DNA of 64,000 bases. Source: Hypoxylon rubiginosum (taxonomy: Eukaryota > Ascomycota > Sordariomycetes > Xylariales > Hypoxylaceae). Positions 936-56,114 of this stretch are shown here, one piece after another. The number at the start of each line of letters is the position of its first letter. Position 1 is the first letter of the stretch. A program made the position numbers and the translations under genes. The stretch covers positions 1,116,001-1,180,000 of the forward strand of contig CADCXA010000024.1 in NCBI GenBank assembly GCA_902806565.1. The letters are read 5' to 3'. Under the pieces are notes generated by a model. That model did not search any database. It was not told the origin of the DNA and saw nothing but the letters and a program-made list of their open reading frames with translations.

Positions 936-2320
936 TCAGAAATTGAGAAGATATTTTGCCCCCAGCCTTAGCATTTCCATAAAATACCACAAATTTATGG
1001 AACCGGGGGCAATCTGTACAGTCTGATTCCCGTTCCCATCTTGTAAACTTTTATTTCTATTCCCAAGTTGTTGAGTCTTGTTCGTATCTCCCTTCGTTGT
1101 GCTCCAGTTAGCATTGCCTAGTTGAACTGTCGCGTTGTAATGCCCCAGGATACTCGACTCGTTCATTTTGGAACATGATTTTCTTTCGTTAGAACTGAAC
1201 GTGGGTTCCTCAGAAATGGGTAGCACATGGACTGAACGTCTTTGGAAAGAGAAAGAGTCATTGGCCATCTTGGTTATGTTGTCCGCTACTTGCTGGTACA
1301 TTGGGTCATCCTCGCTGGCAAACTTGCAGATTTGGCGATGGTTAGCGTCTAATGGTATCTGCTTCTCACGAGTGCCTGGCAATCCAAGAACTGCAGAGTC
1401 CTGGGGTACAACCTAAGTCTGCAGTTAGCAACACACTATAGAGAGTCAACAACCTGAGCTTACAATGCCGAAGCGACCAAGGGGTCGGGTTTCATAGAAG
1501 GTTAGAAACTGAAAGTCCTCAAGAAGCTGTCGGAAGTCGCTGGTGATAGTATTAAGAGTGGAATTATTCTTAAGTGCATCCATGAAGCTGTTGCTAGGGC
1601 TCCCCGACAGGGAACGAGCGATTTTTGCTACCATATCACCAACTTCTGCATGATTCCCCCCTTTATGGGGAGTACCAAAGAAGGCGATACCAAACGTTGA
1701 TTCGCGGATGGCTCTATAGGCTCTATCATTACTTGAATGAACTAGTGCCTGGGAATAGTTAGAAACTCCGTATGTAAGCTTAATGAGACTATTCCAGTAA
1801 CGTACCCGTTTCACAATAATCCCTCCTAAACTATGGCATATAAATATCAATGGGCGATCGGGATTTATCTGTTGTAAATACGGTAAGCTATTGCACCCCA
1901 ATAAACGTGTAAGGTACGTACAGTCCGGACTGCCTCTAACTGATTCAGGAGATTCTCAGCTTGCTCTGTTATGCCAGCAGTTGATGCTTGGAATGCTACA
2001 TTTGAGTTATATCCAAAGAGTAATATTCTTGCCCTTGGGATCCGCTTCGGAAGGAAGTCTCTGAGCCATAATTTTCCTTCGGCTGTCCATGTGGCTTCGG
2101 CGTGCAACTGCTTGTCGAGGGGATTAAGTCCGTGGACGGCAACGATACTATTTTATGTGTCAACTGGGCTGCAATATGAAGTTTGAATTGAAACATACTC
2201 AACAAGAGGCTCTGGCGGGTCAACAAGAACTTTTAGAAAGTTCTTCGAGCTTTCAGTCTGTTCTCCTTTCTTGTCAGCATTCAAAGTCTTTTCAGACTGC
2301 TTCCGACCCCAGGGAACCAT
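936..2320 (-). CDS. SesB-like alpha/beta hydrolase with C-terminal curlin/sigma-like amyloid repeats
   Basis: Five exons, read 5' to 3': 2320-2199, 2147-1922, 1868-1806, 1748-1464, 1412-936; introns of 51, 53, 57 and 51 bases with donors GTATGT, GTACGT, GTACGT, GTAAGC and TAG or CAG acceptors. The joined product is 390 residues. Residues 41-48 (DIVAVHGL) begin the hydrolase fold; the nucleophile elbow HSLGG gives Ser129; FFGTPHKGG is at 160-168; His257 in LDANH is the likely catalytic His, with an Asp near 237 a possible third member. This matches the SesB-type lipase-like family found in fungal cell-death gene clusters. Residues 322-366 are five perfect nonapeptide repeats of type G-x-x-N-x-x-x-Q-x (GHYNATVQL, GDTNKTQQL and so on), followed by a hydrophobic 24-residue tail. 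Start: ATG at 2320 in context acaATGG, the only ATG in frame before the first intron. Inference: the repeats form a templating amyloid that controls the hydrolase. Family call is firm, the amyloid role is not tested. Confidence 0.87.
1011..1145 (-). repeat. five 9-residue GxxNxxxQx repeats in the SesB-like protein
   Basis: Codes residues 322-366 without gaps. Position 1 is Gly in all five units, position 4 Asn in all five, position 8 Gln in four of five. Two consecutive units give Q-x-G-x2-N-x3-Q-x-G-x2-N-x3-Q, the spacing of curli amyloid repeats. Confidence 0.9.
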
Positions 2321-3738
2321 TGTAGGTAGCGTATACTGGGTTTCGATCTTGAAATTGGCATGTCAGTAGCAATTTTTACTACAAAAGCATGGTTTGAAAA
2401 GAGTTTTTATTTTCTGCTAGTCAGCCTGCATATTCTCTCCAAAGTGTCTAACCATTGGTATGCAAACACGTATACTTACGTATACTTAGTGGCAATGATG
2501 CTACAATGTGGCGACCTCGCCTTCCAATAAATACCTACCTAGGTAGCATTGATACTCCGCCACAACACAGCCTGCATTACGTTGGGTGTGAGTGTACGAA
2601 GCTAGGATGCAAAGCTCCTGTTGGGAATGGTCGAAAGTAAGGCTAGCAATCGGCGGTGTAATCTTCGAGTATGTTCTCCATGCTACCAAGGAGGTATGTT
2701 TGGAGATTATATGATACTGTGGTTGCTGTTCGTGGGGACAATTAAACCCTCAAATCCTACATTTCATAACGACTTGTTAAGCAAGGCTATGCATTGAAAG
2801 AAGGCAGCGAAGCAGGCTCCCTATTCATTTAATTTTCGCCAAGCCTGGCCCTCGGACTTGGAGATCGAGGCTGGCTGGACATCCCGGTACATCTTACTGA
2901 AATGGGAGTGTATCTGGCTCACCGGCTTCATGATGGCGTAAGAGGGCGAGCTCGCACTTACACCAATGAATGAGCTAATGGGTCCCTATGCCGGACTTGT
3001 CCAATATGTATTGCTCTGTACTACACAGATAGGGACTCAGGAGGGTTGCAAATTGCGTAGTTGACTGCAAGCAATACTGTCACCCGGCAACCGCGAAACG
3101 ACTGCTACGCAGCTTTACTTAGAGGCTAGGAATGTGGGTATTCTGCCTTGATGCACATCACGAGCCTCAGCTCATGCGGGTGATGCACTCAATGCATCCA
3201 AAATATATTAGAACCTTCACAGTGGCCATTACTGTGCGAGGCACTCATCCCAACGATAGGAGAATCCTTCTACATATGATCCACTATATACCACAGCCTG
3301 CTTTCCTTTCCCCAACAAACTCCCTCTCTTTGCATATCGGGCTTTGAGTGCTCAAGTCATATATCATTTCCTTGTCAGTAAGGTTAACGCAGGATGACAC
3401 AATGCAACTGCCTTATACAACAGCCTCGTTCAATGTGAGTGGACTATATCTAATGAGACGTTTCAAATTAGTAGGTCGCGACCTTAGTAGATTTCTCACC
3501 TTCTCTAGATAGATAATAATTTATATAAAGGGGTTACAAGTCGAGGGGGGGGGGGACGTTTTGCGGCATTAGTCACATCTTGTGTGTTCTACCAAGAACG
3601 ATTGCCTTGCAAATACCTCATTGTCAGTTTTCTAGTAAGTACCAGGTACTCTGCCATTCTATTCCTATGTATCAATCATCCCTGTACAAGTCGGCCACAG
3701 AGTTAGCTGACCCCTTATCACATCTGACCAGAATAACA
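2321..3738. other. intergenic between divergent SesB-like and tail-anchored genes
   Basis: No supported gene. It must hold the promoters of both divergent repeat-bearing genes. It contains a palindromic ACCTACCTAGGT-type motif near 2531-2545 and a G homopolymer around 3545-3555. Frames at 3132-3347 and 2455-2640 have no family features. Confidence 0.5.
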
Positions 3739-4110
3739 ATGTCATCGATGCACCAACGATACGGCCCGGGACAGACAATAGGATCGCAGACCGAAGTCGA
3801 AACAAAAGACAAGAATGTCAACAGAGACAAGAATGTCAACAGAGACAAGAGCGTCAGAAAAGACAATAGAGACGATGGGACGTCAAGCGGCCCACAGCAA
3901 ACCGACACACCTAATGATAAGGCTAAGAATACCGCTTCGAATGATGGGGATGAAAATGATATCGAACAAGATGGAGCTTGGAACAGGGGCTATAATCGCG
4001 GAGACAGAAACACGATTCGGCAGAAAACCCTAGAGTCTTCGAGTATCGCCTACATGATATGTGCAGGCATTGCTGTAGTAGCTGTGGTAGTAACTTGGTG
4101 GTTGAAGTAG
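3739..4110 (+). CDS. small tail-anchored membrane protein with three curlin/sigma-like repeats
   Basis: 123 residues from the ATG at 3739 (context aacaATGTC); upstream ATG 3667 is in the same frame and would add 24 residues, but its context is weaker. Residues 22-45 are a charged low-complexity run of six-residue units such as KDKNVN, RDKNVN, RDKSVR. Residues 70-96 are three nonapeptides, GDENDIEQD, GAWNRGYNR, GDRNTIRQK. Residues 102-122 form one hydrophobic segment ending in WWLK, so the protein is predicted to be tail-anchored with the repeats facing the cytosol. No family is recognised beyond the repeat. It is divergent from the SesB-like gene and convergent with the third repeat gene (169 bases apart). 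Inference: membrane-bound partner or membrane-acting arm of the same system. It could also be a structural fibre protein; function is unknown. Confidence 0.7.
   Translation: MSSMHQRYGPGQTIGSQTEVETKDKNVNRDKNVNRDKSVRKDNRDDGTSSGPQQTDTPNDKAKNTASNDGDENDIEQDGAWNRGYNRGDRNTIRQKTLESSSIAYMICAGIAVVAVVVTWWLK
3946..4026 (+). repeat. three 9-residue repeats, homologous to those of the neighbour at 4403-4645
   Basis: The 27 residues coded here align without gaps to the first 27 repeat residues of the minus-strand neighbour with 13 identities (counted by eye), including every Gly at position 1 and Asn at position 4 and the Gln at position 8 of units 1 and 3. Confidence 0.85.
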
Positions 4111-4279
4111 CTTTGTTGGATAACAACGTAGGTTGATTTGGTAGGGTTGGTATGCTTGATCTGTTAAAGTCGGGGTATCCAATGAATGAAGACTAAAATA
4201 ACCATTACTATTGCTTCATGGGGAACTAGTTTGTCATATTACGATGAAATAGGAGACATCAAAACGTGTAACCCGCCCA

Positions 4280-4753
4280 TCACCCAAAGACTCTATTCCA
4301 GGGCCAACTGTTTTGGAGCCCAGTATACCAAGCATCGAACCCCTTCAACTCCTTCCCCTGAATATATTCTACTTCGGCGTCAATGTATTCGTCTCCCTCC
4401 ATATACTGAACAATGGTCTTCCCCTCACCAGTTGTCTTGCTCTTATTGCCATTCCCTTTTTGTGCGATCTTGTGATTATTTCCAAACGTGTCAGCGACGT
4501 TATGAGCAACAAGTTGGTGAGTTCTGTTTCGATTCCCGTTAACATCGTTCCGGTGTCCTGTACCTTCTTGGCCAGTACTATTCCAGTCTCCTCTATGATT
4601 GCACTTATTATCCTTCCCGTCTTGAGCTATCTCATTGTCATCGCCATCGATTTTAGCGTCATTGAATTTGTCTGAAGAACCGGCAGTGAAGTTGTTGAGC
4701 CCCTCTTTGAATTTGGTTTTTTTCTCATTAAGGAATTTCCAGATGGCATTCAT
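4280..4753 (-). CDS. small protein with nine curlin/sigma-like repeats
   Basis: 157 residues from the ATG at 4753; the frame stays open for another 24 codons upstream but without an ATG. Residues 1-36 begin NAIWKFLNEKKTKFKEGLNN after the Met, a likely amphipathic basic helix. Residues 37-117 are nine contiguous nonapeptides (81 residues, no gaps): GDDNEIAQD, GKDNKCNHR, GDWNSTGQE and so on. Odd-numbered units all have Gln at position 8, even-numbered ones do not, giving an 18-residue super-period as in a two-strand beta-solenoid rung. Residues 118-157 are an acidic then aromatic tail (WYTGLQNSWPWNRVFG). No enzyme or receptor domain is present. Inference: amyloid-forming adaptor or seed for the SesB-like neighbour, or a helix-plus-amyloid effector of the kind where an N-terminal helix attacks membranes. 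Function unproven. Confidence 0.72.
   Translation of the reverse strand: MNAIWKFLNEKKTKFKEGLNNFTAGSSDKFNDAKIDGDDNEIAQDGKDNKCNHRGDWNSTGQEGTGHRNDVNGNRNRTHQLVAHNVADTFGNNHKIAQKGNGNKSKTTGEGKTIVQYMEGDEYIDAEVEYIQGKELKGFDAWYTGLQNSWPWNRVFG
4403..4645 (-). repeat. nine 9-residue repeats with 18-residue super-period
   Basis: Gly leads eight of nine units; Asn is at position 4 in most; Gln at position 8 marks units 1, 3, 5, 7 and 9 only. Unit 6 has lost its leading Gly. Confidence 0.88.
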
Positions 4754-6348: not shown

Positions 6349-9056
6349 ATGCGCCTGCACCGGCTACTGCTGGGGCTCTGCCTTGGCATCGACGCCACTA
6401 CCGCCACAGTATTGGTGTCTGAACCTGGCGACGTCGCCGTCATACCATCGTGGGACATCCAATCTTCCGAGACAGTCGGTACGGACCTAGAGGCGTTGTC
6501 CCGTCCTGGCGTCGACACTACGACATGGCACGAAGTCGACAGCTCCCGCTGTACACTCATGGGCTGTCTTATACAAGCTGGAGTCTATCGTGAGAACGGA
6601 CTCTTCTTCTCAAATGCGCTGCAGAGCTTCAACTCGAGCCAATTCAAAGTGCCTTGGGTATACCGGAAAGAATTCGCTCTTGAACCTTCAGCGGGCCGGC
6701 ATTTCCACATCCAGACTCACGGGATCAACTCCGGCGCCGATATATATGTGAATGGCCAAGAGATCGTGACCAAGGAGACTCAATCAGGTGCTTATGTTGG
6801 GAGTTCTTACGATATTACCAGTATAGCAGAGGATCGAAATGCATTGGCAGTGCGCGTGTATCCGACCGACTACAACTACGATTTTGCCCTCGGGTTTGTG
6901 GATTGGAACCCGTATCCGCCCGATAACGGAACGTAAGTAATCTCTTGTCCAGAGAGAAGTGCTGACTAACTCATTGTCGAAGTGGCGTATGGCGGAATGT
7001 GGAAGTGAAACAGACAGGACCGGTCGCACTGGGGCCATTGCGGGTGACTACTCAAGTCGGATTGCTAATTGAAAATTCTAGCGCCGTTGTGGGGTTGAAG
7101 GCGACAGCCACGAATCTAGAGGACCGGGAGGTTACTATCGAGCTAAAGGGCACTGTTTCTCTCGAAGAAGGCGGCCGAAACTACAACTTGAACAAGACCG
7201 TCACGATACCCCCGCTTGGAACCACCGAATTGGCCTTATCAACAACACTAAACAAGCCCGCGATCTGGTGGCCAAGGCAATGGGGCGAGCAACCGCTATA
7301 TCTTGGCCAGCTATCCGCTTCAGTCGACGGGGCTCTCTCCGACAAAGTAGAGCAAACGTTTGGCATCCGTCAGGTAACTTCGAAGCTCACTTCGAATAAC
7401 GACACCATATTCTACGTCAATGGCTATCCTTTCCAAGTTTCCGGCGCGGGCTACTCGGCTGACATCTTTCTGCGTTGGGATACGGCCAAATTCACCACAC
7501 AGGCTAAACTCATGCTCGACCTAGGCCTTAACACAGTGAGATTGGAGGGCAAAAATGAGCATCCGGAGCTATATGAGGTTGCAGACCGCCTAGGCTTGAT
7601 GGTCCTGCCGGGTTGGGAGTGCTGTGATAAATGGGAGGCCTGGACGTACAATGAGGACTTGGCCGTTAAGTCGGAGTGGACAGGGGCCGATTACACAATT
7701 GCGAATAGGAGCATGTATCACGAAGCTCTCATGCAACAGGGTCATCCGAGTGTGCTGGGATACCTAGTCGGTAGCGACTATTGGCCCGACGACACAGCGG
7801 CGGAGATGTACTACCATTCACTCAAGGCAGCAGACTGGCAGGGACCTATCATTGCGTCGGCATCAGAGAGGGGCTTCCCGGCGATTCTAGGTCCATCAGG
7901 ATTAAAAATGGCCGGGCCATACGACTGGGTGCCGCCGAACTACTGGTACGATGTTGAGCCAGCAGAAGATCGCTTGGGTGCTGCGTTCGGCTTCGGTTCC
8001 GAGCTTGGTGCCGGTGTAGGAACGCCGGAAATTAGCAGCTTGAAGAAATTCTTGTCGGAATCGGATCTGGAAGACTTGTGGAAGAACCCAAATAAGGGGC
8101 TTTATCATATGTCGACGAGCGTGTCATCCTTCTATGACCGTAAGATTTATAATGATGGTCTGTGGAATCGCTATGGTGCGCCTTCTTCACTGGAGGACTA
8201 CCTGCTCAAAGCCCAAATCATGGACTACGAGGCGACAAGGTCTCAGTTCGAGGGCTTTTCAGCCCTGTGGAGCGCCGAAAGACCAGCGACGGGGCTCATT
8301 TACTGGATGCTGAATAACGCATGGCCAAGTCTGCATTGGAACCTGTTCGACTACTACCTGCACCCAGCTGGATCTTACTTCGGAGCCAAGGTCGGTGCTA
8401 GGAAAGAGCATGTAGCGTACGATTATAACGGGAAGCTCGTGTATCTGATCAACCACTCGCTAGATAGAAAGGGCTCGAGATCGGTGGCGGTCGATGCCAT
8501 TGACAAGAGTGGCAAGACAATCTACAGCAGCCACAAAGTTGTCAAGACAGAGCCGAATACTAGTAAGGTCATTCTGGACCTCACCAAGGCTCTCGGATCG
8601 ATCACGGACGTCGCATTCCTGCGCCTCGTCCTTTCGGATGACAAGAAAGCCGTACTTAGTCGCAATGTCTACTGGCTTGCAACGACTATCGACACGTTGG
8701 ACTGGGACAACTCGGACTGGTTTTTCACACCGGTCACTGAGTACGCGAACTTCACCGCCCTGAACGATCTACCGGCTGCCAAAGTCTCCGTCACGCTTGC
8801 GACATCACGATCGCATCGACGTGAAGCAGCAAAGGATATCTCGGTCGTGGTCGAGAACCACTCTAGAGTCCCCGCGTTCTTTATCAGGCTCAATCTCGTC
8901 GACAAGGATGGCGAAGACGTCCTGCCGGTGCTATGGTCGGATAACTATGTTACTCTATGGCCTAACGAGAAGCTCGAGCTGAAGGTTGAAGGCGATGGCG
9001 GGGCCGCCGTTCAGGTCAGCGGTGGGAATATAAAAAAGGCGAATGTATATCTGTAA
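6349..9056 (+). CDS. secreted GH2 exo-beta-D-glucosaminidase (exochitosanase)
   Basis: Two exons, 6349-6932 and 6983-9056, with one 50-base intron (GTAAGT ... gactaac ... AAG); 885 residues, close to the usual fungal length near 890. Residues 1-20 are a signal peptide (MRLHRLLLGLCLG then Ala/Thr-rich), so the enzyme is exported. Layout is the GH2 set: sugar-binding jelly roll (about 80-195, with GVWRNVEV after the splice), immunoglobulin-like domain, TIM barrel from about 330, then C-terminal beta domains. In this GH2 subfamily the acid/base is an Asp and the nucleophile a Glu; I place them at Asp460 (LVGSD) and Glu535 (GFGSELGAG). The family releases GlcN from the non-reducing end of chitosan oligomers. 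A start at 6305 is out of frame. Codon use and splice sites are regular and nothing is broken. Confidence 0.9.
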
Positions 9057-30716: not shown

Positions 30717-31562
30717 CTAAGGCTCGTACGGCGGAGGCGGACTACCGTTGCTATTACGATCCAACTCCGGGTCGAAGCGCTCTCTGCCGTCCCTACCGTA
30801 CCTCTCGCGCAAGTCGTCTAGCTCGTAATCGTGCGGTTCCAGCGATCTCCGGATGTCTGGGCCGGAGTCCATGGCCCCGACGACAGCCGCATAGAACGCC
30901 GGCGGTTGCGAAACCCAGTTGGCGCCGAAGTGCTCGCGCATGTGGTTTCCGCAAAACGGATACGCGCCTTCGTCCACGGCTCGACTCGACCCGGTGGTTC
31001 CGCGCCGTCTCGATGGTCGGGCATCCGTCGGCCTGTGGACCGGTCCATCGTTGTGACTGTGACGCCCCTGTGCTTGAGCATGTTCGCGGCGCGGCCTGTG
31101 ATGGTTTCCGTGGGCGTTCCCGTGGGTATGGTTCCGACCATGTCCGTGCATGGAGAGACTACGACCAAATTCGTGGTTGTGTCTATGGCTGTGGCCATGA
31201 TTGTGGCCGTAGCCGTGGTCGTGGTCGTGGTCGTGGTCGTGGTTGTGGTTGTGGTTGTGGCCGTGGCCGTGGCTGTGGCTGTGGCCGTGGCCGTGTTGAT
31301 GAGTGTGGCTGTGTTGAGTGTGGCGACGACGAAGATGAGGGTGGAACTGCGTATTGGTAATGGGCTCGCTCCGGCCGGTTGTTACGTTATAAGCTATTCC
31401 TAGCTCGTTAAGGACAGTGTACGTTGGCATGAATGGGTGCCCGTGCTCGAGGCAATCATGAAGACCCCTTCCGCAGGGACAGACGCAGCACCGGCAATTC
31501 TGAGGGCGGCCGCACTCGCAGCCCGTGTAGTCTTCGATAAGGCCTCCATCGACGCGGCTCAT
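30717..31562 (-). CDS. Cys/His-rich protein with long His-repeat tract, probable metal binder
   Basis: 281 residues from ATG 31562, intronless. Residues 15-37 carry eight Cys (CECGRPQNCRCCVCPCGRGL then C37), enough for one or two zinc sites. Residues 81-153 alternate His with Gly, Ser, Asn or Asp (HGHGHSHSHGHGHNHNHN, then a DH run). Near 207-222 is YPFCGNHMREHFGANW, and the C-terminus reads SPPPPYEP, a PPxY motif. There is no signal peptide or membrane segment. The His tract resembles those in zinc/nickel-handling proteins, but there is no transporter or chaperone domain. Inference: intracellular metal buffer or metal-responsive adaptor. The repeated codons make long Val-rich and Gly-rich shadow frames on the other strand, which are not genes. 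Confidence 0.75.
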   Translation of the reverse strand: MSRVDGGLIEDYTGCECGRPQNCRCCVCPCGRGLHDCLEHGHPFMPTYTVLNELGIAYNVTTGRSEPITNTQFHPHLRRRHTQHSHTHQHGHGHSHSHGHGHNHNHNHDHDHDHDHGYGHNHGHSHRHNHEFGRSLSMHGHGRNHTHGNAHGNHHRPRREHAQAQGRHSHNDGPVHRPTDARPSRRRGTTGSSRAVDEGAYPFCGNHMREHFGANWVSQPPAFYAAVVGAMDSGPDIRRSLEPHDYELDDLRERYGRDGRERFDPELDRNSNGSPPPPYEP

Positions 31563-32740
31563 CTTGTCTGTTCTACTAATAGACTGATCTACTTATAGAT
31601 TATTGATGGATACATAAGTACCTTGTTAGATTCACAGCTTCAGCTTGATTGATTGTATGCCTAAGGTAGAGGATGGTGCTTCGGGATGTTGTGCCGGGGT
31701 AATAAAAGGAATACGTTAGGAGATAGGAAGTTATATATGTGTAATTTGAGCTATTCTATTATAGCTACAGCTAATGAATCGAGTTTGCGTTACTACTGTC
31801 ATTCATAACGTGCCGTCGTATTTTGCCCTGACTCGAACGACACTGCAAACGCCGAATGGAACAAATTCATACGTAGGTACGCTACAATCACCGACTTGCT
31901 TGGGATATCTGACTACTTACCGAGGAAAGTCGTGTTGGGGCAACACAAAATATTGAAGAAACAAAGAAAAAAGCTCAGTCGAGGAGTTGAACTCACAACC
32001 TACGAAATACCCACATCGGACAAGCATATTGTTAAGTGCTTGAAAGGAGAGCCAATAATGGTCTACACTAACCGAAAAGGGTTGATTTACTCGATTGTCA
32101 TTTCGTGGCGTTTGTGACAAGGGCGTACTGGTACGTCAGTAGTGACCTGAACCTGCATTGGGATTGGTGATGACCTCCAAATCAGGCCCGCAGTTGCCAG
32201 GAACGGCAATCACCTTGCATATGTAAGCTTTCAGCTACATCTAAGGGCAGTGTCCGCCTCCCCGGCGAGCTGAAATCTATGGACACAGGCCTATCGCATT
32301 ACTTGTCGTTAGTCAACACTTCAATAATATCCGCGTCGACAAGATTACCTAGCTGGTGATCTCGACAAATTCAACAACATATACTCTGACCCATCTTCAG
32401 CAAATTTCATCCTGTCCAAGAACCAAGTCAGCTGAATGTCCCCCTTTCAAGAATCTCAGCATCGACAACGTTAAGTATTGACGCCAATCTCACTTTAACG
32501 CTCAACTTCTGCCGCTGCTTCTGGTGTGCCAACGGGACGACTTCGCATCATGCTTCTAATGCCAAGACGAGGTCAAACGAGTAACGAGCTGCTAGAAGTA
32601 TGGACCAAGTGGAGATGAAGAGAAAGGGAGGGAGTCATTTTCTCATTTAAGGAAGAGGGAATCCCGTATTTCATCTGTTCTTTATCTTCTCATCACCAAC
32701 ACCCGAGACTTCACAGTATCTTCCACCAACCAACGACACA
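31563..32740. other. intergenic, no gene recognised
   Basis: About 1.2 kb. Frames at 31774-31956 and 31896-32117 lack family features. The part before 32,741 is the promoter of the GLEYA gene. Confidence 0.5.
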
Positions 32741-33469
32741 ATGATGCGCAATATCCAAGGCCTGGGCTTGCTCCTACTGGCCTCGGCGCCCATGATCACC
32801 GCCGTCATTCCTCCCGTCGAGCTGTGTCCCAGCTGTCCCAAGCCGAAGCACTGCTTCAACGAGGGCTGGGACTGGGCGTACTACAGCAACCCCCTTCACA
32901 ACGACGGCGAAGACTACCCGGGATTTCGCGCCGACGTCTTCAAGACGCGGGATCCCGCCTACTCGGGCGTGACGCCCTGGATCGGCGGCCACCTCGGCTA
33001 CACCGAAGCTGACCCGGACACGGCGACCTTCTACCAGTCCTCGACGCAGCTCAACAGCACCTACTTCGCGCTGAGCCACCGCGCCTACCTGTACGCGTGC
33101 GAGAGCGGGGCGTGGCAGTTCGACGTCTCGCGCGTGGACGACGCGGTCCTGGCCTGGGTCGGCGACGCCGCGTACGCGGGCTGGACGGACGCGAACGCCG
33201 ACGCCAGGGCCGCGTGGACGTTCCTCGGGGCCGCCGGGCAGCACTTCGGCGCCGCGAGCTTCGCCAGGGACCTCGACGGCGGCCGCTTCTACCCCATGCG
33301 CTTCGTCTTCGCGAACGCCCAGTGGGGCGGCAGCTTCAACCTGACCATCACGAGCCCCAGCGGCGTCATCGTGCACCGGTCCGGCCGCGGCAGCGACTGG
33401 GTCGTCCGGTCCTCGTGCGGCTTTGACACCTCGGCTCCGCGCTTCCCTGATTTCGGGGCGGAGACCTGA
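32741..33469 (+). CDS. secreted GLEYA-domain lectin-like protein
   Basis: 242 residues, intronless, ATG 32741. Residues 1-21 are a signal peptide (MMRNIQGLGLLLLASAPMITA). The mature part begins with a Cys-containing linker (ELCPSCPKPKHC), then a GLEYA-type beta sandwich: GWDWAYYSNPLHN (about 42-54), a stretch with GVTPWIGGHLGY, one N-S-T glycosylation site near 106, CESGAWQFDVSRVDDAVLAWVGDAAYAGW, and RFYPMRFVFANAQWGGSFNLTITSPSG. GLEYA domains bind cell-surface sugars in fungal adhesins. Here the protein stops soon after the domain with no Ser/Thr-rich stalk or GPI signal, so it is expected to be released rather than wall-anchored. It is very GC-rich at third positions, in contrast to the AT blocks nearby. 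Confidence 0.85.
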   Translation: MMRNIQGLGLLLLASAPMITAVIPPVELCPSCPKPKHCFNEGWDWAYYSNPLHNDGEDYPGFRADVFKTRDPAYSGVTPWIGGHLGYTEADPDTATFYQSSTQLNSTYFALSHRAYLYACESGAWQFDVSRVDDAVLAWVGDAAYAGWTDANADARAAWTFLGAAGQHFGAASFARDLDGGRFYPMRFVFANAQWGGSFNLTITSPSGVIVHRSGRGSDWVVRSSCGFDTSAPRFPDFGAET

Positions 33470-53611: not shown

Positions 53612-55465
53612 TCAAACCAGGTGGAACTCCTGAGTCTCGATATGCTGATCTTGGAATAACGCGAACACGTCCAGGTCGTACAAAAAGCAGTCCCCGATCA
53701 GCTCGTAAGTGCCATTATCTCTAGCTCTCAAGACGAAGGGGTACTTGCCACCAGGGAAGAAGACGATATCATCTTTCTCATCTGCGTGGGGTGGTGCCAA
53801 ACCCATCGAGCCCTTATCGGTGATGAAGAACTTTCGGCCGTAACAGGTTATCTCTAACTGGCGACCAAACTGTTCCAACTTCTTGATAATAGCCTTAGTT
53901 TGTTCCTCTTTTTGTTGCTCGCTTCCAGGCCCATTGTCCACCTTAGCCATTGGTCCAGTGGCTTGGGCTTTTTCAAACCACTCAGGATCAGCATCCCCTA
54001 GCACACCGGTGCTGAGATTCAGATACCATAGGTTGAACATATCCGTCACGCGAGACGCCATGGGCCGCGTTTTCCTGACGTATGGCTTTTGGTCGCTTTC
54101 AATTAGTAAGTCAACCTCGTCCTTCCCAGCTACAGTATCGGCGAAAGCATCTGTAATTGATTGAGGAAATCTCTTCGTATTGGTAAGTCTTAGTGCTAGT
54201 TCCTCCCATCCGCGGAAAACGTTGCTGAACCCCTCGGTCCCAAACACGACTGTCTCTTCCGCCTTTAGATCGTCGGCTAGCTTGTCGATCTTTTCAATTA
54301 ACCGCCCGCGAACTGCGAGGATATTGCTGGGGAGAAAGCCATACTCTGGAAGTAGCTTAAGGGGATAATGAATGGAGTAGGTCGCCGCTTGGTCAAATAT
54401 TCTTGGCAGAGTGCCTACCGGGTTGACAATGCTGTAGTCTGGAACCCAGGATGGAAGACCAGGCAGCTGCTTGCGAGTTCCAAGCCAATGAAGGACCTCG
54501 AGATCTTGACTCGACTCGATGACGTCGCGAGTAAATTCTTGAAACACTTGAACATGGTCCTTATAATAGGCACCAGCAACATCAGAGGTCGAGTCAGCCG
54601 CCATAACCGCGAACACCTTATCTCTCGGATCATCCGCTCGGCAATGCCTACTCCACAGGAATGTATTCCTCGCTCGCCCGCGATGGGTACCAGTAAGATC
54701 AAGAAGATTGTGCACGTGTGTTGGGCCATCCGGACCCTCCAGCGGATGGTAGTAACTGCTCTGGGGCAAAAAGGTAGAGCATTTTATCAGCTCCAGCCAT
54801 TCGCTCTGGTGGCGGCCACACAACATCGTAACCTTCTTGCAAATTACGAGCTCTACAGCAAGCCATGCGTTGTAGAACGAACTCCTTTTGCATAGCTGAC
54901 GAAAGGCCTCTTCTGTCTCGCCCCGATAGGAACACCAATTGAGATGGTTATGTCCGCGGCATCTGTCGAGATGCTCGAATACTAGGTTCGATTTGTTCTC
55001 CGTAGCTCCAAGCCAAACAAGGAGGCTAGTTGAGGCCTCGTAAGTACGGATTAACTTGCTGGTTTGCGAAGCTTTTTCTTCGTCATAACTGTCTCCTTCG
55101 CCAAATTTTTGGTTGATACAGATACCTTCGGTAAAAAGGAGCCTCGGCTTATCCTCCAATCTAACTCGCTGTAATGCCTCCCAGATATCTGCCGGGATGT
55201 CGAGGGTCTGGCCATTCAGGGAGATGGGTACAAGCGGCTTTGATGAGGCACGCCAGTCGCAAGAGAGGATTTCGTACTGATGAACCTCATCGTCTTTCGT
55301 GTGAAATATTCTGCACCTAATTGGATCTTCGGGTGAAAGAGAGGGCTCAAGTTCCAGAAGCCTTCGACAATTTCCCTCTATCTCAATAAGGTCATAGCGG
55401 AATTGGGTTGCAGTGTCTTCCAGCCAAGGGACTGGCTCGCTGGAGGAGTCTTCGAGGAGAGACAT
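53612..55465 (-). CDS. HET-domain (heterokaryon incompatibility) protein
   Basis: 617 residues, intronless, ATG 55465. The HET domain spans about 64-215: YEILSCDW (65-71, where most relatives have LSYxWG), LNGQTLDIPADIWEALQRVR (83-102), LLFTEGICINQ (109-119, usually LWVDAICINQ) and SLLVWLG (147-152). The C-terminal module ends GRKFFITDKGSMGLAPP ... DDIVFFPGGKYPFVLRARDNGTYELIGDCFLYDL, typical of stand-alone fungal HET proteins, and the length is typical too. HET domains, related to TIR-like folds, trigger cell death when incompatible strains fuse or when an activator is sensed. Two core motifs diverge from the consensus (SCDW, TEGICINQ), so activity is uncertain. The gene is intact although it begins 2.4 kb from a RIP-degraded element and ends only 535 bases from it. 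Confidence 0.9.
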   Translation of the reverse strand: MSLLEDSSSEPVPWLEDTATQFRYDLIEIEGNCRRLLELEPSLSPEDPIRCRIFHTKDDEVHQYEILSCDWRASSKPLVPISLNGQTLDIPADIWEALQRVRLEDKPRLLFTEGICINQKFGEGDSYDEEKASQTSKLIRTYEASTSLLVWLGATENKSNLVFEHLDRCRGHNHLNWCSYRGETEEAFRQLCKRSSFYNAWLAVELVICKKVTMLCGRHQSEWLELIKCSTFLPQSSYYHPLEGPDGPTHVHNLLDLTGTHRGRARNTFLWSRHCRADDPRDKVFAVMAADSTSDVAGAYYKDHVQVFQEFTRDVIESSQDLEVLHWLGTRKQLPGLPSWVPDYSIVNPVGTLPRIFDQAATYSIHYPLKLLPEYGFLPSNILAVRGRLIEKIDKLADDLKAEETVVFGTEGFSNVFRGWEELALRLTNTKRFPQSITDAFADTVAGKDEVDLLIESDQKPYVRKTRPMASRVTDMFNLWYLNLSTGVLGDADPEWFEKAQATGPMAKVDNGPGSEQQKEEQTKAIIKKLEQFGRQLEITCYGRKFFITDKGSMGLAPPHADEKDDIVFFPGGKYPFVLRARDNGTYELIGDCFLYDLDVFALFQDQHIETQEFHLV

Positions 55466-56114
55466 TTTGGACGTCCAGATTCCTTACGTAATCAAGGGGC
55501 CCACTTCGATATCCTTTTGACGATACTGTCGAACATATCGCTATAACCAATATCGCTATAACCAAAGCTATGCACGTCTCGACGATAAATCGTGCCTATC
55601 CAGAATATCCGGACCGAAGTTCGATTGATTTGCAAGTTTACCTAATGTAAAGAAGTAATCCAGGTTTCATTCGTATCTAATGTGTCTTTTAAGATGTTTG
55701 TTGGTTGGAGCATGACGTGTTGTAAATAATGAGCGGGGAAGTTGAGCCAACCCCTGAGTGCCTGAACTCTCCTCCCATTATGAATTCACGTGATGCCATG
55801 ATGCATGATAGGGGCACTTTTTCTTAATTTCGAGGTATTTTTCTATTCAGTCGTGAATCTATTATTCTCTTTCTAAATAATACAGACAATAGGTGAAATT
55901 CTATCATCCCCGAGCCATTGTGTAACCGGAATGTCTTTTGGTAGTCGTTAGTGCCCCTGTTCCCGTTTAGGTATCGTGCCTAATCGGAGTCCCCTAAACC
56001 CCTGAGCCCCTGAGCCCTAAGCCCCTGAATAGGTACCTGAACCTTTTGCCCATGTCTCTTAAACGCCAAATTAACAACACTACCTACATGTAGGTAGGTT
56101 AGCGAAGAATCCAA
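55466..56114. other. intergenic with small tandem repeats
   Basis: Contains a perfect 15-bp tandem duplication (tatcgctataaccaa) at 55536-55565, a CCCCTGA-type tandem at about 55990-56030 and a palindromic ACCTACATGTAGGT motif at 56081-56100. It holds the HET gene promoter and the 3' end of the GNAT gene. Confidence 0.6.

Follow-up and report, generated by a model that had tools for sequence, protein, structure and literature searches.

Three adjoining genes at positions 936–4753 of a 64,000-nucleotide stretch of the genome of Hypoxylon rubiginosum, a wood-inhabiting fungus (the stretch is called the window here), are predicted to encode a SesB-like serine hydrolase (A), a small tail-anchored protein (B) and a soluble repeat protein (C). 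It is secure that SesB-like hydrolases carry a conserved repeat domain lying outside the amyloid-motif profiles tested, and equally secure, by sequence comparison, that B and C bear the same domain. That the three proteins form one assembly module, in which a homotypic, probably amyloid-type interaction clusters a lipase at the membrane without an adjacent NOD-like receptor (NLR), we regard as the best explanation, at about even odds. A preliminary description of this DNA had proposed three neighbouring genes, each with a repeat domain, and these genes are real. In the open-licence PMC literature, a scope outside which preprints and most subscription papers lie, no description of the 18-residue motif or of a hydrolase/tail-anchor/soluble trio was recognised.

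The repeat unit comprises 18 residues, in which an S-type 9-mer (xxxN-x-S) alternates with a Q-type 9-mer (GxxN-x-T-x-Q), the full rung reading N-x-S-x-[T/V/I]-x-G-x-x / N-x-T-x-Q-hydrophobic-G-x-x. Three such rungs are found in A, two in B and five in C. The preliminary description had counted 5, 3 and 9 literal copies of G-x-x-N-x-x-x-Q-x in A, B and C, respectively; counting by hand yields 4, 2 and 3. Its gap-free register of nine residues is correct and extends further than claimed (6, 4 and 10 units), and the conservation in orthologues that it had called for is seen in the homologue scan given below. The 9-mer spacing and the predicted strands fit a stacked beta-arch (solenoid); the unit is one of 18 residues with two alternating 9-mer types.

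Homologues of A number 363 at an expect value (E) of ≤0.001, the best among those listed being 72 % identical over its full length; Daldinia is one of the genera with orthologues. The 115 of the 120 listed homologues that do not exceed 600 aa were scanned for gap-free repeats. In 55 of these 115, five 9-mers follow behind a sixth without gaps and in the register of A; in the remaining 60 the pattern is missing or the sequence ends early. In the Trizodia protein P0082 the pattern begins and the sequence is truncated, and it was left out of the count. Since the rule by which carriers were selected uses G, N and Q, conservation of these residues among the carriers is partly built in. Not selected for are position 6, which is Ser in units 2 and 4 (41/56 and 39/56) and Thr in units 1, 3 and 5 (32/56, 42/56 and 38/56), and the last position, which is Phe in unit 3 (33/56) and Ile or Val in unit 5 (38/56). 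This alternation at positions outside the selection indicates that the unit is indeed 18 residues long and present three times per hydrolase. Across a 47-row alignment, the repeat domain has a mean pairwise identity of 43 % and is free of insert columns, as compared to 11 % identity in the unconserved linker before and 16 % in the unconserved tail after it; aligner gaps of 1–7 positions occur in 4 of the 47 rows (P0065, P0078, P0087 and P0097). Judged by genus name, the carriers are mostly Xylariales; further ones belong to Gaeumannomyces, Fusarium, Pestalotiopsis and Pyrenochaeta or are unnamed metagenomic sequences.

The tails behind the rungs of the hydrolase orthologues often form a hydrophobic or amphipathic helix, with a best-window Kyte-Doolittle hydropathy (KD) above 0.5 in 27 of 56. 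An 18-residue window with KD > 1.6 is present in the tails of 8 of the 56 (P0023, P0024, P0032, P0037, P0039, P0055, P0074 and P0097). In orthologues with such a hydrophobic tail the enzyme itself may bind membranes. Among the 16 listed homologues longer than 460 aa, repeats were detected in P0048 only (Lasiodiplodia mahajangana O1611_g3021, 577 aa). This protein looks like a hydrolase fused to an unrelated neighbouring gene, lacks the catalytic-serine stretch and matches no Pfam family at E ≤ 0.1; as the sole candidate for repeats in NLR-type relatives it was rejected.

Membership of B and C in this repeat family was assessed with an 18-column profile built from the 55 homologues, A, B and C being left out. 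B scores 21.5 bits over two rungs and C 81.5 bits over five rungs (ten gap-free 9-mers). None of 20,000 composition-preserving shuffles of the segments and none of 2,000 whole-protein shuffles reaches the score of either B or C, while a single rung of B is within chance (reached by 6 of 2,000 shuffles). Exchanging the S and Q units (register +9) lowers the score of B to −3.3 and that of C to −18.4, so the S/Q alternation itself is common to both proteins.

The preliminary description had taken A for an intact SesB-type hydrolase, B for a protein with a C-terminal membrane anchor and C for one opening with a basic amphipathic segment, and all three assignments were borne out. In case of A, a five-exon reading frame yields a protein that matches DUF676 with 20.8 bits (Pfam cut-off 20.3), and this family is found at E ≤ 10 in 45 of the 47 aligned proteins. 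Its Ser129 is conserved in all 45 ungapped rows, Glu223 and His257 in 47/47 rows. The predicted gene product is thus an intact SesB-like serine hydrolase with the Ser-acid-His triad in place. Searching solved structures by sequence with the hydrolase profile gave one non-significant match (E 0.58). The hydrophobic end of B (KD 2.38 in the C-terminal window) would form a helix of about 20 residues right behind the rungs, and no Pfam family reaches its cut-off in this protein. The N-terminal segment of C has a hydrophobic moment of 0.48–0.51. The database copy of C (F4820DRAFT_437148) is annotated as a hypothetical protein and is the sole relative found by a search with C alone.

In case of known amyloid motifs, the preliminary description had left open whether the repeats are the sigma motif or a distinct, curlin-like class. 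The sigma motif is ruled out by the Pfam profile NACHT_sigma (PF17106), which matches none of 47 full proteins, none of 38 repeat stretches and neither B nor C at E ≤ 10, while the published sigma peptide, as positive control, is recognised at E 1.7e-11. On the 18-column profile the same peptide scores −14.3 bits over one rung, with 281 of 300 shuffles equal or better. Of the four literature peptides placed on this profile, three look unrelated, and BASS3 (2.4 bits, 2/300 shuffles) offers too little to build on. The NACHT_sigma search of the genome gave no match, but the control went unmatched as well, rendering this search uninformative. The search with Pfam Ses_B, which had been proposed together with NACHT_sigma, likewise gave no match in A, B, C, the 47 proteins and the 38 stretches (E ≤ 10); this profile is reported in PMC12261475, as far as the cited part of that source goes, to be a misnamed PP-motif profile. 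The HET-s (HRAM) profile is not among the families found at E ≤ 10 for the same sequences, and NCBIfam contributed nothing meaningful. Curlin_rpt (PF07012) is matched by 3 of the 38 repeat stretches (best E 0.0024) and by 1 of the 47 proteins (E 0.43), and by none of A, B and C. By its grammar the domain is nearest to curlin; by profile it is no clear member.

A beta-solenoid strand pattern, structure prediction of which had been suggested for the repeats, was obtained for one orthologue of A. The AlphaFold2 (AF2) model of P0003, computed with a 46-row alignment, contains six strands, one per 9-mer, each predicted to begin just past Asn4, with a period of 18. Its predicted local distance difference test (pLDDT) values in blocks over residues 341–390 are 93, 89, 95, 89 and 91 (range 89–95). 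The strand pattern is that expected of a predicted two-sheet solenoid with 18 residues per turn. In fold searches with the P0003 model the list was taken up by hydrolase matches, and searches of solved structures by sequence gave 0 matches with the repeat profile and 0 with C.

Searches of the genome (six-frame, intron-blind and exon by exon, on the 48.3-Mb assembly of 70 contigs) with the repeat domain of A returned A itself and C (E 0.77 and 1.7) only. With the cross-species consensus, A was retrieved at E 4.8e-13 and C, at a distance of 3.4 kb, at E 0.002 and 1.28, these being the only matches at E ≤ 10. B was missed by both searches, so short copies can escape. With B as query, B itself, locus L029 as best non-self match (E 0.012) and C (E 1.77) were found. 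L029 (1459–2280, minus strand; C24:1070691-1070867), about 45 kb upstream of the window, encodes another tail-anchored protein, which has two GxGNSxxxQ units and a central part resembling a coiled coil. The agreement of these repeats with the 18-residue register is poor (61 of 2,000 shuffles reach the two-rung score). A scan of 84 sequences, among them the window and 50 NLR loci (364 kb in total), gave no two-rung match above 10 bits beyond A, B and C. Single 18-mers at window position 8991 (plus strand, within a glycosidase gene, 14.9 bits) and in L047 (11.6 bits) were taken as chance.

The mechanism we propose starts from 18-residue beta-arches that would stack as a solenoid of two sheets, with ladders of Asn and Gln. 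As their rungs follow one grammar, A, B and C could stack end to end in one filament. B, with two rungs beside its tail anchor, would set this filament at the membrane, and C, with five rungs and an amphipathic N-terminus, may serve as main building block or nucleator. Through stacking of its three rungs, A would be drawn to the membrane as a cluster of SesB-like serine hydrolases, which might cleave lipids there and cause membrane damage or regulated cell death. The intermolecular, amyloid-type polymer, the co-assembly of A, B and C, the membrane-lipid substrate and the cell-death outcome are what we infer from this arrangement. The amyloid signalling module put forward in the preliminary description is supported as to its parts, i.e., enzymatic SesB-like, tail-anchored and soluble components with one common repeat domain. 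A farther-reaching version, which we hold to be possible and rather doubtful, is a receptor-less fungal amyloid signalosome: tail-anchored and soluble subunits, with no NLR, would nucleate a membrane filament and switch on a SesB-type lipase, and the 18-residue minimal curlin-like arch would define a new family of signalling amyloids.

Several observations weigh against one assembly module. The amyloid-motif profiles of Pfam give no meaningful match. For C, AF2 with an alignment of five rows (C, exon 5 of A, P0122, P0123 and B) yields a poor model (mean pLDDT 48.7; ten-residue blocks of the rungs 33–69), which has strands in 7 of the 10 units and provides no independent support. Of 22 PDB matches obtained with this weak model in a fold search, not one reached E ≤ 0.001 (best 0.68, FapC); neither these nor the presence of CsgA and other beta-solenoids among them was used as evidence. 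Residues 76–119 of C (window 4403–4529) match Reprolysin_4 at E 1.7e-4 with 21.8 bits (cut-off 22.0). Because C has no HExxH motif, this reading was rejected and the match taken as a chance by-product of the His/Asn/Gly-rich rungs. Kinship of the repeats is uneven: of 57 repeat sets, that of C is nearest to B, also on variable columns alone (21 vs 7 for the next), but B ranks only 5th of 57 for C and falls outside the top six of C on variable columns, and the repeats of A, among the same 57, come only 51st in closeness to B and 33rd in closeness to C. In view of these low ranks there is no visible co-evolution of A with B and C, which weakens the claim of one co-evolved trio. By sequence, B inclines to C, and what links A to both is family grammar and position, with no special similarity. 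In known loci, motifs are described as more alike within a cluster than between orthologues (PMC3321046, in the part of the paper relied on).

Small repeat partners outside this fungus were not found among 7,990 word-based candidates that were scored (lengths about 89–283 aa). Four matches were obtained at E ≤ 10, i.e., the database copy of C, P0122 and P0123, which are C-terminal pieces of Pestalotiopsis-type hydrolases (compare P0040), and the metagenomic P0124 (E 0.61). The latter (139 aa) has an N-terminal hydrophobic segment followed by alternating GSGNSASTN / GNGNTTNxN-like 9-mers and scores 48.3 bits over three rungs with the fungal profile, the search E value being 0.61 only. Judging from these features, P0124 is a possible membrane-anchored analogue; no relative of it was confirmed in prokaryote genomes. 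As a standard amyloid-signalling locus, finally, the window is atypical, its contig containing no NPHP3_N, NB-ARC or NACHT match within about 209 kb.

This last point bears directly on canonical NLR-driven amyloid signalling, in which A would be the effector and an NLR bearing the motif at its N-terminus would be encoded elsewhere or be too diverged for recognition. Such an explanation follows the known pattern of SesB effectors with C-terminal amyloid motifs adjoining NLRs, and the typical fungal amyloid-signalling locus has an adjoining NLR with the motif (PMC3321046 and PMC5485727, in the portions cited); an exception to NLR adjacency is reported for one motif class (in the cited portion of PMC9815663). 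NLR domains are many in this genome, with at least 101 NPHP3_N, at least 20 NB-ARC and at least 59 NACHT matches in overlapping sets. On the contig of the window, however, about 209 kb separate the window from the nearest match upstream, which has its end at 907,116, and the rest of the contig downstream of the window contains none. Since the six-frame search is intron-blind, it may have passed over a fragmentary NLR. No NLR-like open reading frame (ORF) was seen by eye in the 10 kb upstream (L001) or among the long ORFs downstream. The 50 NLR loci scanned for rungs (30 NPHP3_N and 20 NB-ARC, 5 of them below cut-off, with flanks of about 1.5 kb) are without a two-rung match above 10 bits, L047 with its single 18-mer included, and the genome searches with the repeats of A or the consensus led to A and C only, though they missed B too. 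We therefore consider an NLR-driven system unlikely.

Alternatively, the repeats could fold as an ordinary beta-solenoid that acts constitutively as scaffold or binding domain and holds A in a membrane complex with no amyloid switch. The confident folding of the domain within a single chain in the AF2 prediction would be in accordance with this, and the tails of the 27 orthologues with KD > 0.5, 8 of them above 1.6, could make membrane binding intrinsic to the enzyme. A solenoid of three rungs, however, would leave its edges exposed, curlin subunits predicted with the same fold do polymerise (according to the cited part of PMC10192328), and 2, 3 and 5 rungs of one grammar would be more easily explained by stacking; a purely structural domain thus appears improbable. 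A third alternative is an accidental grouping, in which B and C have nothing to do with the function of A and their Gly/Asn-rich repeats arose or were copied locally. The absence of special closeness of A to B or C, the short and partly low-complexity nature of B and the failure to find a partner in other species all speak for it. The cross-species profile, on the other hand, fits B and C in one register at a score reached by 0/20,000 shuffles, and the best genome match after A is C in its immediate vicinity, making a chance grouping very unlikely.

Fungal signalling amyloids have been discovered largely via NLRs and the effectors encoded beside them (PMC9815663 and PMC3321046, as far as cited here), so a motif whose effector has no adjoining NLR could be missed. 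The domain described here is present on SesB-like hydrolases of many Xylariales-type genera and of a few other ascomycetes and has a precise, testable grammar. The common 18-residue repeat suggests a new kind of switch that gathers an enzyme at the membrane. The domain would tie intracellular fungal assemblies to the architecture of curlin. Should B and C act as the trigger, then membrane state or expression, and no NLR ligand, would control a lipase effector.

Features of the three-gene cluster, in window positions
Feature	Position	Strand	Basis or remark
Gene A, SesB-like alpha/beta serine hydrolase with C-terminal repeats	936..2320	−	spliced model, 390 aa
Exons of gene A	2320-2199, 2147-1922, 1868-1806, 1748-1464, 1412-936	−	four GT-AG introns, 51-57 bp
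Repeat domain of A, residues 313-366, three 18-residue rungs S-Q-S-Q-S-Q	1011..1172	−	register common to 55/115 homologues
Gene B, small tail-anchored protein, 123 aa	3739..4110	+	open frame
Repeat domain of B, residues 61-96, two 18-residue rungs directly before the anchor	3919..4026	+	21.5 bits, cross-species profile
Putative C-terminal membrane anchor of B, residues 102-122	4042..4104	+	hydropathy, sequence
Gene C, soluble repeat protein, 157 aa	4280..4753	−	F4820DRAFT_437148 of Hypoxylon rubiginosum, 99 % identical over full length
Repeat domain of C, residues 28-117, five 18-residue rungs	4403..4672	−	81.5 bits, cross-species profile
Basic amphipathic N-terminal segment of C, residues 1-22	4688..4753	−	hydrophobic moment 0.48-0.51; helix in low-confidence model

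Elsewhere in the window, an exo-beta-D-glucosaminidase or GH2 type glycosidase is encoded downstream of the cluster (6966–9056, plus strand; Ig_GlcNase, E 7.4e-36). Also present are a gene for an adhesin-like GLEYA-domain protein (32651–33469, plus strand; E 1.4e-26) and an ORF with a long His/Gly/Asn/Asp-rich tract (HGHNHDHD...; 30717–31592, minus strand), which matches no Pfam family at E ≤ 0.001 and whose opposite strand is also open. A HET-domain protein (PF06985, E 1.6e-9), representing a heterokaryon-incompatibility type gene, is encoded 49 kb from the cluster (53612–55483, minus strand).

Among known systems, the bacterial BELL/BASS pairs resemble the present cluster in possessing a membrane-helix protein with an amyloid motif (PMC7889193, in the part cited). 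The predicted fold of BELL is an alpha-helical bundle, and its partner is an NLR, whereas B is a short, putatively tail-anchored protein with no NLR nearby. The PP-motif cluster of Chaetomium globosum (HELLP, the SBP lipase and PNT1) likewise has a putative lipase as one of two effectors with a common amyloid motif (PMC5485727, as far as cited). The motif of this cluster, a pseudo-palindrome of about 20 residues, reads FxGx(x)NxGLQLxGxNxGxL, and an NLR is present there (cited portions of PMC5485727 and PMC3321046).

The ses locus of Nectria haematococca (SesA, SesB, HET-eN) is described in the cited part of PMC3321046 as a gene cluster with a common motif, in which a SesB-like hydrolase carries a C-terminal three-fold Gly/Asn/Gln-rich motif with submotifs of about 9 residues. 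The sigma sequence given there, GxGxQFNxx / GGTQNINT, differs from GxxN-x-T-x-Q-h / xxxN-x-S found here, and its partners are SesA and an NLR, in contrast to the tail-anchored and soluble repeat proteins of H. rubiginosum.

The repeat itself is best compared to curlin. CsgA and CsgB share with it N at the strand start, Q at the strand end, an X-G-X-X arc and a predicted two-sheet solenoid, and their kernel, N-$-psi-$-psi-$-Q-X-G-X-X taken twice, spans 22 residues (PMC10192328, in the portion drawn on for this comparison). The Q-type unit, N-$-psi-$-Q-X-G-X-X, corresponds to this kernel minus one core position (two residues per strand), and in the S-type unit N, Ser and the G-arc are retained while the Q is missing. 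In place of a curlin repeat of about 22–23 residues, gap-free 18-residue rungs fit A and 55 of the 115 homologues scanned; a rung thus has 18 vs about 22 residues, and Q ends only every second strand. There is, further, no secretion context as in curli, the repeat being fused to an enzyme and, putatively, to a tail anchor. While it is no demonstrated curlin member, it is a sensible statement that the repeat works like a shortened curlin arch.

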